From assembly GCA_025361205.1 (NCBI GenBank), contig JANYAS010000011.1, positions 1 to 64,000 of the forward strand: a stretch of DNA of 64,000 bases, read 5' to 3'. The DNA is from Holophagaceae bacterium (GTDB lineage Bacteria; Acidobacteriota; Holophagae; Holophagales; Holophagaceae). A program made the translations under genes and the position numbers. The notes under the pieces are model-generated. The model saw only the letters and a list, made by a program, of their open reading frames with translations. It searched no databases and was not told where the DNA came from. Below are positions 13,834-60,968 of the stretch, one piece after another; position 1 is the stretch's first letter; the number at the start of each line of letters is the position of its first letter.

Positions 13834-13861
13834 TTGACCTCATCGAAATCGCTGTTTTCAT
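13834..13861 (+). promoter_or_regulatory. Candidate sigma-70 promoter upstream of the TrpC-like/H1-like gene
   Basis: TTGACC at 13834-13839 and TTTCAT at 13856-13861 are separated by 16 bases, in an unusually AT-rich stretch (13801-13865) of otherwise GC-rich DNA. The -35 is good, the -10 is weak. The downstream gene starts at 13940. Confidence 0.35.
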
Positions 13862-13939: not shown

Positions 13940-15136
13940 ATGCTAAAGAAAGTAGCCATCTTCAAGGCCCTTGATGTGGAAATCAAGAAGCAGAGGGGCC
14001 CTGTGGCGGTGAAGGACGGCTACAAGGGTCACCATTCCTTGAAAGAAGAGCTCAGCCAGCCTGGAATCACCATCTTGGGTGAAGTTGCAGGGGGGGATCC
14101 CGGCCGCGGGCAGGTCCGTGAGGCCTACAAGGGGTCCACCCATGCTAAGAGTCTGGTCGAAAACGGGGCCCGGGCCCTGTCTGTGGCCACCGACAAGTTC
14201 CTCTATTTCGGCGAGGACAAGCACCTTTCCGAAGTCCGCGCCCAGGTGAAAGTGCCCCTGGTCCGCAGGGAATTCATCTTCGAGGAGTACCAGGTCGAGG
14301 AGAGCAAAATTCTTGGGGCTGACGCCATCTACCTCATGCCCGCCCTGCTGACCCAGGATCGCCTGCAAACCCTCCTGAAGTTCGCCATCAGTAAGGGGCT
14401 AGACGTAGTGGTGGAGGTCACTTCAGAGGCTGAACTCCAGCGCGCGGTAGAGGCGGGTGCCGACATCATTTCCGCCGTGGGCCGGAACCTGGATACCTGG
14501 GAAGCCTCCTGGGACAAGGCGGTGGCCCTGGTCAAGAAAATACCCAAGAGTTGCCTAAAATTGGTTGAGGGTGGCATCCACCGGCTGGACCAGATCAAGC
14601 AGATGGAGGCCCTGGGCGTCCATGGCCTCGTGATCGGCGATGCCCTCCTCGACGACTACTATCCCGGCAAGCGCCTGGCCCAGATCCTGGCAGGTGTGGA
14701 GCCACCGAAAAAAGCCGCGAAGCCCAAGGGCAAGACCGGCTCTGCCGCTGACGCGGCGCTAGCCCCCACGGCTGCTCCTGCGGCCAAGGATAGCGTATCC
14801 TCCCCGCGGAAAGAAACGGCCCAACCTGGCACAAAAAATGCTATGGGCAAGCCATCTTCCCGCACGACCCCTTCCAACCCCGCCCAAAAGGGCGTAAAGG
14901 AGCCACCCATGGCCGAACTGACCAACCTGGTCGCCACCACCGAACCCGTCGCCGCCAAGAAGCCGGCGAAAAAGGCCGCCCCGAAGAAGAAGGCTGCCGC
15001 CAAGAAGCCCGCGGTTAAGAAAGCCGCCGCCAAGAAGCCGGCCGTCAAGAAGGCCGTGAAGAAGGCCGCGCCGAAGAAGGCCGCCGCCAAGAAGCCGGTC
15101 GCCAAGAAGGTCGTGAAGAAGGCCGTCAAGAAGTAG
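13940..15136 (+). CDS. TrpC-like pseudoenzyme fused to a histone H1-like Lys/Ala/Pro-rich tail
   Basis: Protein of 398 residues. Residues about 30-255 follow the indole-3-glycerol-phosphate synthase TIM barrel: ARALSVATDKFLYFG, VPLVRREFIFEEYQV, DVVVEVTSEAEL and EGGIHRLDQIKQMEALGVHGLVIGDALL. Catalytic residues are mostly lost: the family EIK is EVA (first Lys to Ala), RKDF is RREF (general-acid Lys to Arg), and the INN motif is changed; the Glu in VEV and in EGGI remain. It is therefore unlikely to make indoleglycerol phosphate. Residues 256-323 are a disordered linker, and 340-398 repeat AAKKP/VKK units like H1-type DNA-binding tails. ATG 13940 follows GGAG at 13928-13931. An internal start with its own ribosome site lies at 14909. 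Confidence 0.75.
   Translation: MLKKVAIFKALDVEIKKQRGPVAVKDGYKGHHSLKEELSQPGITILGEVAGGDPGRGQVREAYKGSTHAKSLVENGARALSVATDKFLYFGEDKHLSEVRAQVKVPLVRREFIFEEYQVEESKILGADAIYLMPALLTQDRLQTLLKFAISKGLDVVVEVTSEAELQRAVEAGADIISAVGRNLDTWEASWDKAVALVKKIPKSCLKLVEGGIHRLDQIKQMEALGVHGLVIGDALLDDYYPGKRLAQILAGVEPPKKAAKPKGKTGSAADAALAPTAAPAAKDSVSSPRKETAQPGTKNAMGKPSSRTTPSNPAQKGVKEPPMAELTNLVATTEPVAAKKPAKKAAPKKKAAAKKPAVKKAAAKKPAVKKAVKKAAPKKAAAKKPVAKKVVKKAVKK
14909..15136 (+). CDS. Histone H1-like basic protein, possible separate product from an internal start
   Basis: In-frame internal ATG at 14909 with AAAGGAG at 14896-14902 (six-base spacing), a better ribosome site than that of the full-length gene. It would give a 75-residue protein: MAELTNLVATTEPVAA, then about ten AAKKP, APKK or VKK repeats to the end. 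Small H1-like proteins of this composition bind DNA non-specifically and compact nucleoids. Whether the cell makes the fusion, the short form or both cannot be settled from sequence. Confidence 0.55.
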   Translation: MAELTNLVATTEPVAAKKPAKKAAPKKKAAAKKPAVKKAAAKKPAVKKAVKKAAPKKAAAKKPVAKKVVKKAVKK

Positions 15137-15164: not shown

Positions 15165-16490
<1,326 letters not shown>

Positions 16491-59046: not shown

Positions 59047-59180
59047 GAGCCTCCCAGGTGCCCCGGAACGGGGACGCCTCCATGGTGCCAGAGCGCCCGG
59101 GTCCTCCGCGCCGGAGCCGGGCATTCCCTGGGTCTAAATCGTCCGGGCGGCGGCACAATAGAGGGTTCCCTGGAGCCCCC

Positions 59181-60968
59181 ATGCGCCTCATGCCTGCCCT
59201 GATCCTCACCCTTCCCCTTATGGCCCAGGTGGCGGCCCCCACCCAGGGGCCTCTTCAGGAGCGCGCCGACCGGTTCCTGCAGCTGGCCAACGCGGGCTAC
59301 CAGGCCCTGTACTACGTCAATTCCGAGGCCAGCTGGGCCGCCACCACGGATGTGAAGCCCGAGCACGACGCCGCCGCCGAGTGGGCCGGCAAGTCGCTGG
59401 CCGCCTTCACGGGCAACCCGACGCTCCTCAAGGAGGCCAAATACCTGCTCTCCCGCAAGGCCGAACTCAGCGAAGTGAGCGTTCGCCAGCTGCAGCGCAT
59501 CCTTCTGATGCCCTACATGGCCGAGGGGCCCATGACCAACCCGGCCCTCACCGCCGAGCGCATCGTCGCGGAGACCCGCCAGGCCAGCCTGCTGAATGGC
59601 TATGTCTTCCAGATGGACGGCAGGCCCATCAGCGCCAACCAGATCGATGACCTGCTGGCCAAGAGCAGCGATCTGCCCGAGCGCCTCAAGGTGTGGGAGC
59701 TCTCCAAGGAGATCGGCCCCGTGCTGAAGCCGGGCCTGGTGAAGCTCCGCGACCTGCGCAACGGCGTGGCCCGGGAACTGGGCCATGCGGACTACTTCAG
59801 CCTGCAGGCAGCGCGCTACGACCTGAGTACCGAGGAACTCATGGCCTACAACCGCCGGTTCCTCCAGGAGCTGCGGCCCCTCTACCTCCAGCTGCACACC
59901 TGGGTGAAGTACGAAATGGCGAAGAAGTACGGGCAGCCCGTGCCGAAGGTGATCCCCGCCCACTGGATCAACAACCGCTGGAGCCAGAACTGGACGGGCT
60001 TCGTGGCCGCCGTGGACTTCGATCCCTACTTCAAGGGCTGGCAGCCGGAACGCATCGTCAAGACGGCCGAGGCCTTCTACACGGGCCTGGGCTTCGACCC
60101 GCTGCCGGCCACCTTCTGGGCCAAATCGGATCTCTATCCTGTGCAGCCCGGCGACCCCCGCAAGAAGAACAGCCACGCCTCCTGCTCCCACCTGGACCTG
60201 GACAAAGACATCCGCTCCCTCATGAGCGTGGAATCCAACTACCAGTGGTTCGAGACCGCGCACCACGAGCTGGGCCACGGCTACTACTTCATGAGCTACT
60301 CCACTCCCGGCGTGCCGCCCCTGCTGCGGGAGGGCGCCAACCCCAGCTTCCACGAGGGCGTGGGCGAGCTCATCGCCCTGGCCACGCGCCAGATCCCCTA
60401 CCTCAAGGGCGCCGGGGTGCTGCCGGCCGACTACAAAGTGGACGAGATGCAGGTGCTGCTGAATGATGCCTTGGAGGTGGCCATCCCCTTCATGTTCTGG
60501 GCCTGCGGCACCATGCCCGAATGGGAAGCCGACTTCTACACGAAGGGGCTGCCCGCCGACCAGATGAACGCCCGCTGGTGGAAGCACGTCCGCGACCTCC
60601 AGGGCGTGGAGCCGCCCAGTCCCCGGGGCGAGGGGTTCTGCGACGCCGCCACCAAGACCCACATCACCGACAATCCCGCCTACTACTACAGCTATGGCTG
60701 GGCCACGGTCTTCAAGTTCCAGCTGCACGACCACATCGCCCGGAAAATCCTCCACCAGGATCCCCGCGCCACCAACTACGCCGGCCACAAGGAAGTGGGC
60801 GCCTTCCTGAAGCAGATCCTGGCCAAGGGCGCCACCGAGGACTGGCGTAAGGTGCTGAAGGACGCCACCGGAGAAGATCTCTCCACCCGCGCCATGATGG
60901 CGTATTTCAAACCCCTGATGGCCTGGCTCGAGCAGCAGAACAAGGGCCGGCAGATCGGCTGGGATTAG
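59181..60968 (+). CDS. M2 family (ACE-like) zinc peptidyl-dipeptidase
   Basis: Secreted or periplasmic peptidase of 595 residues with signal peptide (MRLMPALILTLPLMAQ). The zinc motif HHELGHGYY (about 360-368, HExxH) and the third ligand in SFHEGVGEL mark family M2, the family of animal angiotensin-converting enzyme. KNSHASCSHLDL and WWKHVRDLQGV also match. It cuts dipeptides from peptide C-ends; substrates in bacteria are unknown. It is followed three bases later by hslO. Confidence 0.92.
   Translation: MRLMPALILTLPLMAQVAAPTQGPLQERADRFLQLANAGYQALYYVNSEASWAATTDVKPEHDAAAEWAGKSLAAFTGNPTLLKEAKYLLSRKAELSEVSVRQLQRILLMPYMAEGPMTNPALTAERIVAETRQASLLNGYVFQMDGRPISANQIDDLLAKSSDLPERLKVWELSKEIGPVLKPGLVKLRDLRNGVARELGHADYFSLQAARYDLSTEELMAYNRRFLQELRPLYLQLHTWVKYEMAKKYGQPVPKVIPAHWINNRWSQNWTGFVAAVDFDPYFKGWQPERIVKTAEAFYTGLGFDPLPATFWAKSDLYPVQPGDPRKKNSHASCSHLDLDKDIRSLMSVESNYQWFETAHHELGHGYYFMSYSTPGVPPLLREGANPSFHEGVGELIALATRQIPYLKGAGVLPADYKVDEMQVLLNDALEVAIPFMFWACGTMPEWEADFYTKGLPADQMNARWWKHVRDLQGVEPPSPRGEGFCDAATKTHITDNPAYYYSYGWATVFKFQLHDHIARKILHQDPRATNYAGHKEVGAFLKQILAKGATEDWRKVLKDATGEDLSTRAMMAYFKPLMAWLEQQNKGRQIGWD

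Follow-up and report, generated by a model that had tools for sequence, protein, structure and literature searches.

A single uninterrupted reading frame, present across the family Holophagaceae, joins a TrpC-fold barrel without its catalytic residues to a histone H1-like tail; the fusion, the loss of those residues and the gene's conservation are shown here. By a modest margin, we favor the view that this is a family-wide two-product gene, giving a tethered dead barrel and a free tail, where the existence of both products, the binding by the tail and a ligand for the barrel are inferred. It is an apparent taxon-wide gene-within-a-gene, with a pseudoenzyme and a histone-like protein in one frame, and a match to PF00218 taken by itself would give it a TrpC label and leave the short protein overlooked. 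The gene lies in a 64,000-nucleotide stretch of DNA (the window, meaning the whole of what was analyzed) from a genome in 190 contigs (G000), judged by its search hits to be nearest to Geothrix. The features needed below, with the support for each, are these:

13834 to 13861, plus strand: candidate promoter of the full ORF, picked out by eye (TTGACC at 13834-13839, 16 nt, TTTCAT at 13856-13861, with TG before TTTCAT)
13940 to 15136, plus strand: full ORF of 398 aa, pseudo-TrpC barrel, linker and H1-like tail (single stop-free frame)
13940 to 14701, plus strand: TrpC-fold barrel without catalytic lysines, residues 1-254 (PF00218, AlphaFold2, PDB matches, residue alignment)
14702 to 14908, plus strand: disordered basic linker of 69 aa (frame kept in every relative; lowered synonymous change)
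14882 to 14893, plus strand: hairpin GCCC-AAAA-GGGC, a few bases upstream of the internal Shine-Dalgarno (SD) sequence (stem of 4 bp or more in 11 genera; consensus energy)
14897 to 14902, plus strand: internal SD, AAGGAG (same in 58 of 58 site-bearing loci; codon-invariant)
14909 to 15136, plus strand: internal ORF, the H1-like tail alone, with ATG at 14909-14911 and 75 aa as assembled (ATG invariance; AAKKP composition)
15210 to 16490, plus strand: eno (enolase), the conserved downstream neighbor (PF00113/PF03952)

The ATG at 13940 is supported as the start of the full ORF since relatives in genus g9 have a TAA codon immediately 5′ of the equivalent ATG. The candidate promoter was missed by a consensus scanner and is thus provisional; promoter-like TTGACC and GCTG(G)TTT elements reappear upstream of the fused gene in most of the genera compared. 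Inside the fused gene the scanner found no promoter on either strand. Separately, a long GC inverted repeat without a T run, AGAGGGGCGCGCTGGCGCGCCTCTCT, occupies 15169-15194 between the fused gene and eno, and similar repeats occur in L104, L105 and L106; it is possible that the repeat separates two transcription units or acts as an attenuator.

The barrel has the fold of TrpC, the indoleglycerol-phosphate synthase (IGPS), without its chemistry. Residues 29-239 match the Pfam IGPS family PF00218 at E=2.2e-47 (161.8 bits against a cut-off of 27), AlphaFold2 with 31 related sequences predicts a confident eight-stranded barrel (pLDDT 89.9, pTM 0.89), and the top PDB matches of the predicted barrel are IGPS enzymes (6y88, TM-score about 0.85). 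The fused protein falls below every NCBIfam TrpC equivalog cut-off, the best score being 175.2 bits against 260. The first catalytic lysine motif, EIK, reads EVA in the window's barrel, and the second, RKDF, reads RREF. Among the orthologues aligned, every one has Ala or Ser for the strand-1 lysine, Arg, Gln or His for the strand-3 lysine, and Val or Leu for the strand-6 Asn of GINxRDL, and the phosphate-site serines are changed in orthologues as well, with ESG becoming EGG, EAG, EAS or ECG and the SPS of strand 1 becoming DPG, NPL or SPG. Both catalytic lysines are retained in 12 of 12 aligned TrpC controls, which also keep the strand-6 Asn and the phosphate-site Ser. Three acidic residues, on strands 1, 5 and 7, are mostly retained in the pseudo-TrpC barrel. 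The importance of the altered residues for catalysis or phosphate binding is well established for IGPS. A sequence-only reading of the locus had proposed a barrel that keeps the IGPS fold and phosphate-site pattern but lacks both catalytic lysines: the fold and the lysine losses hold, the latter family-wide, while the phosphate-site pattern holds only in part, given the changed SPS and ESG serines. That reading would have been refuted by catalytic lysines found elsewhere by alignment, and no relative has a lysine at either catalytic position.

The same genome encodes a second, normal TrpC with the lysines of EYK and YKGF intact, between ORFs that read, by eye, as TrpD and TrpF; the pseudo-TrpC gene is located outside the trp operon. 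Pseudo-TrpC sequences form one clade in a tree, on a long stem with support of 100/100. Within genus the barrel has a dN/dS of about 0.06, it contains 83 invariant residues, and in the same genome pairs its identity exceeds that of true TrpC (91 vs 77%, 84 vs 70% and 71 vs 53%). Moreover, genomes G008-G010, of 0.9-1.2 Mb, keep pseudo-TrpC, and a second TrpC match is absent from them. The strong constraint, the higher identity and this retention together rule out a decaying copy. Hence it is very likely that the barrel is not a tryptophan enzyme, loss of activity being inferred from the residues, and a metabolic barrel has apparently been recruited to another job in which it is more strongly conserved than the working enzyme. 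As a side observation, two well-separated lineages make up the family's working TrpC in the tree, one with E[VIL]KF..SP in genera g3, g7 and g8 and one with E[YF]K..SP in the remaining genera (L110, L114, L119 and L127 compared with L002, L117, L118, L120 and L122-L126). This suggests replacement by gene transfer inside the family, whereas pseudo-TrpC was passed on vertically.

Orthologues of the fused gene were found in 11 genera, all in one GTDB family, the Holophagaceae, soil and sediment bacteria that include Geothrix. There were none in two sister families of the same class and none in the rest of the phylum (396 genomes in total, about 350 of them outside the family), in a search that separated fused-family matches, at 416 bits or more, from true TrpCs, at 325 bits or less. 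Wherever anything matched in a phylum genome outside Holophagaceae, there was one TrpC per genome, and a scan of genome contigs outside the family returned no orthologue and only one weak spurious fragment. Within the family, all 23 loci checked have eno as the next gene downstream; upp lies upstream on the opposite strand in these loci, the exceptions being g2, g11 and a single locus that lies at the end of its contig. The fused gene is apparently absent from G029, G038 and G068, where the contig begins no more than a few hundred bases ahead of eno; such absences are expected if the tail repeat breaks assemblies. An ancestral arrangement beside eno in the sister families was sought and rejected, there being no such gene and no Lys-rich ORF upstream in 12 genomes of f2 and f3. 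Three metagenome-derived genomes (G033, G037 and G051; L025/L027, L032/L033) have a second full or partial pseudo-TrpC copy, often at a contig end, for which strain mixing is a possible source.

No stop codon separates barrel from tail in any of the 62 loci examined, 43 of which end at a stop codon beyond the tail, while 19 are still open at the end of the contig or fetched region. (Four genomes among these loci were fetched twice, once from each of two collections; L091, which carries a frameshift, was left out, and the tail of L087 contains N.) The linker varies from 50 to 76 aa among relatives, in frame every time, and synonymous change is lowered across much of it. A second stretch of the linker, CCGCGGAAAGA at about 14804-14823 (peptide PRK[DE]), was observed to be near-identical in Geothrix and in the g2 genomes L038 and L040, which are distant from it. 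As assembled, the window's tail consists of 75 aa of AAKKP repeats with a pI of 10.9. In complete isolate genomes (L105, L106), however, the tail is about 160 aa, roughly twice as long, so the 75-aa length is uncertain and the repeat may be collapsed in the 190-contig assembly. The tail has no match in Pfam and matches the H1-like model NF038053 only weakly (24.1 bits against a cut-off of 80). With the tail as query, no further H1-like gene was found in the same genome, in a search that is weak owing to low complexity. The source genome has five HU/IHF-type matches, and thus the fused gene would supply only one of several nucleoid components. In genus g3 (L083/G058 and L088/G057) the tail has shifted to Lys-poorer repeats (PVPDSDPTPAKTPAKK; KKPEPKAVPPA).

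At the internal start, AAGGAG at 14897-14902 is followed by CCACCC and then by the ATG at 14909-14911, a spacing of exactly six bases, and AAGGAG-N6-ATG is the same in 58 of 58 loci bearing the site (54 non-identical sequences). The two codons between the SD and the ATG are free to vary (PP, PK, PQ, PR, PI, FP, FQ, SS, TS). In L088 (G057), GTG stands in place of ATG behind an intact SD, as AAGGAG-N6-GTG, and in its sister species, L083 (G058), the internal site is lost and the fusion retained. If codon-invariant columns are those whose codon is kept in every row carrying the residue, only 3 of 121 amino-acid-conserved columns in the 54 non-identical sequences qualify, namely, the hairpin's GCC and the two SD codons, AAG and GAG; in the enolase control, drawn from 42 loci of this set, none of 216 columns does. 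The SD uses AAG and GAG even in g2 (0.40 and 0.17) and g11 (0.23 and 0.34), where these codons are in the minority. Within genus, synonymous change drops to 0.08-0.11 of expectation in 15-codon windows ending at the internal start. The invariance of the SD codons, set against none in enolase, therefore places the site under selection as nucleotides, and such selection acts on both the internal initiation site and the hairpin. Its simplest cause, one inferred without expression data, is a translation start at fixed spacing.

The sequence-only reading had placed AAAGGAG six bases before an in-frame ATG at 14909, which holds exactly, within an uninterrupted frame from barrel through linker to AAKKP tail, which also holds (13940-15136); the 75-residue product that it derived is uncertain. 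It had called for a comparison of orthologues, in which the fusion and the internal start both prove conserved across the family, except in L083, without the internal start. It would have been refuted by relatives with a stop codon separating the two parts, and no relative showed one; its fallback of a lost stop, had relatives possessed two separate genes, is not borne out, since the relatives are fused.

An in-frame internal AAGGAG with a start codon at 4-9 nt is found in 2 of the 49 large ORFs of the window; the other is at 59082-60968, with AAGGAG-N9-GTG at codon 213. Translation data are scarce for this phylum, and the site in the fused gene is a clean test case for internal initiation. 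The L083/L088 pair, for its part, is a natural test of the need for a short product, which must be dispensable in L083/G058 because the fusion there lacks the internal start.

The hairpin, GCCC-N4-GGGC, ends three bases 5′ of the SD. With one representative per genus, 11 of 11 genera show a stem of 4 bp or more, and L088 and L090 make a comparable stem from different bases (CCCT/AGGG). RNAalifold gives the hairpin an energy of -7.4, where synonymous resamples give -0.6 ± 0.8, but the resamples ignore shared ancestry and the z-scores therefore overstate the case. In each of five genomes scanned, the hairpin-SD-ATG pattern has a single occurrence, at the fused gene, and a genome scan of G058 found none. 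Other structures are less secure. The SD pairs with an upstream pyrimidine tract in many single folds, which is not clearly above synonymous controls (0.35 vs 0.26) and is not claimed. A second hairpin over the start codon appears in 8 of 11 genera, against 2.2 expected, with start-region pairing not above controls. The sole match to a known RNA family at the site is far below threshold.

In the model we favor, the full-length protein would comprise a non-catalytic TrpC-fold barrel, a flexible linker and a polycationic H1-like tail. The tail would hold the barrel on the nucleoid or another polyanion, as is thought for the KPAA tails of AlgP and PhaF, an analogy for which there are no binding data. 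Ribosomes would also initiate at the internal AAGGAG-N6-ATG, past the small hairpin, and make the tail alone, a free H1-like protein that may coat nucleic acid and compete with the tethered barrel. The target of the tail may be DNA, RNA or polyphosphate, and the barrel would bind some ligand or partner. That one locus yields a barrel protein and a free tail, as first proposed from the letters, is supported by conservation, with expression of the two products inferred and not measured; "DNA-anchored" and "DNA-compacting" remain inferences from composition. Against the model stand the lack of expression or binding data, the absence of the internal start in L083/G058, and the fact that tail composition is not proof of DNA binding. 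Pausing or an unknown RNA role may possibly account for part of the SD-start conservation. A bolder reading, which we hold to be rather less than an even bet, has a sensor-like dead barrel on DNA via its own tail, the same gene releasing free tail via the post-hairpin internal start; the balance between tethered barrel and free tail would then set both barrel loading and chromosome compaction. If true, it would be a new kind of nucleoid protein system.

Four rivals to the two-product model must be weighed. The first is a fusion fossil: an ancestral downstream H1-like gene with its leader lost the intervening stop in the family ancestor, and its ribosome-binding site is now unused. The linker-hairpin-SD-ATG layout does resemble a former leader, and one species (L083) dropped the site but not the fusion. 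However, a useless ribosome-binding site is not expected to stay codon-invariant over 10 genera while the remaining linker diverges, when enolase has no such columns, and the change from ATG to GTG in L088 preserves start function. As an account of present use the fossil is unlikely; as the history of origin it is possible, and compatible with present use.

The second is a programmed pause, in which SD and hairpin would slow translation at the boundary between the domains, giving the barrel time to fold ahead of the tail's synthesis, with no short protein made. A braking effect on ribosomes has been proposed for SD-like sequences and hairpins inside coding sequences, a debated matter (PMC5100845), and the site is about 70 codons past the barrel. 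For the SD taken by itself, this is the chief rival. A pause, though, needs no start codon at fixed spacing, and it leaves unexplained an ATG that never varies except by exchange for another start codon (GTG, L088); we doubt it. We are similarly doubtful of the third, that only the full-length protein matters, the barrel having a new ligand or enzymatic role, the tail localizing it to DNA, RNA or polyphosphate, and internal initiation being a minor by-product. The constraint on the barrel, with its many invariant residues, and the keeping of barrel plus tail by L083 after loss of the internal start are in its favor, but the nucleotide-level conservation of the initiation site is left unexplained. 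The last, a lost stop codon or misassembly fusing two genes in this genome alone, draws on the 190-contig assembly and a tail shorter than those of relatives, but is all but excluded by the same fusion in single-contig G018, G042, G072, G073 and G077 and many independent assemblies, so that a lost stop is no recent accident or artefact and could describe the family ancestor only.

Returning to the two-product gene, its parts can be set beside known systems. The literature searched contained nothing relevant on pseudoenzymes of the TrpC type or on histone-like proteins of Geothrix, and the combination of dead barrel, H1-like tail and internal start was not found in it. TrpC itself (PF00218) shares fold and sequence family with the fused barrel, along with most of the acidic residues of strands 1, 5 and 7, but it has the catalytic lysines, strand-6 Asn and phosphate-site serines that pseudo-TrpC orthologues are without. 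The tail has the Lys/Ala-rich repeat composition of the H1-like proteins Hc1/Hc2 (NF038053), and Hc2 is reported to vary in length by repeat number (PMC2848022), as does the tail; here, in contrast, it is encoded by an internal in-frame ORF that ends a barrel gene, and it scores far below the NF038053 cut-off. A cationic repeat tail on a folded domain is also seen in the Lys-repeat tail of actinobacterial TopA (PMC7398561) and in the NCBIfam valyl-tRNA synthetase model PRK14900, which the fused protein weakly matches. Those domains are active enzymes, whereas here the catalytic residues are lost and the tail begins with a start codon of its own.

Parallels in working are AlgP and PhaF of pseudomonads, in which a folded domain carries a DNA-binding KPAA-repeat tail and which are thought to position granules (PMC9239181). 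The likeness lies in a folded N-terminal domain followed by a disordered Lys/Ala/Pro repeat tail as likely tether; the difference is that the N-terminal domain is predicted alpha-helical in AlgP, or granule-associated in PhaF, and here is a TrpC barrel. By analogy, without direct comparison, the fused protein would be AlgP/PhaF-like in its working and not a member, and N-terminal homology is not expected. An internal start for the tail of AlgP or PhaF is not reported in the bearing sections of PMC9239181. For such starts the precedents are SctQ/HrcQ (PMC4295842, PMC8553256), two-polypeptide endolysins (PMC4777826, PMC7098653) and Cas11b (PMC11899642), each with one frame and an internal start that yields the C-terminal domain alone. 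None of these is reported with a pseudoenzyme and an H1-like tail, whereas the short product here would be a polycation whose start follows a conserved hairpin. Thus, between AlgP/PhaF on the one side and SctQ/HrcQ, the endolysins and Cas11b on the other, each element of the proposed arrangement has a precedent.
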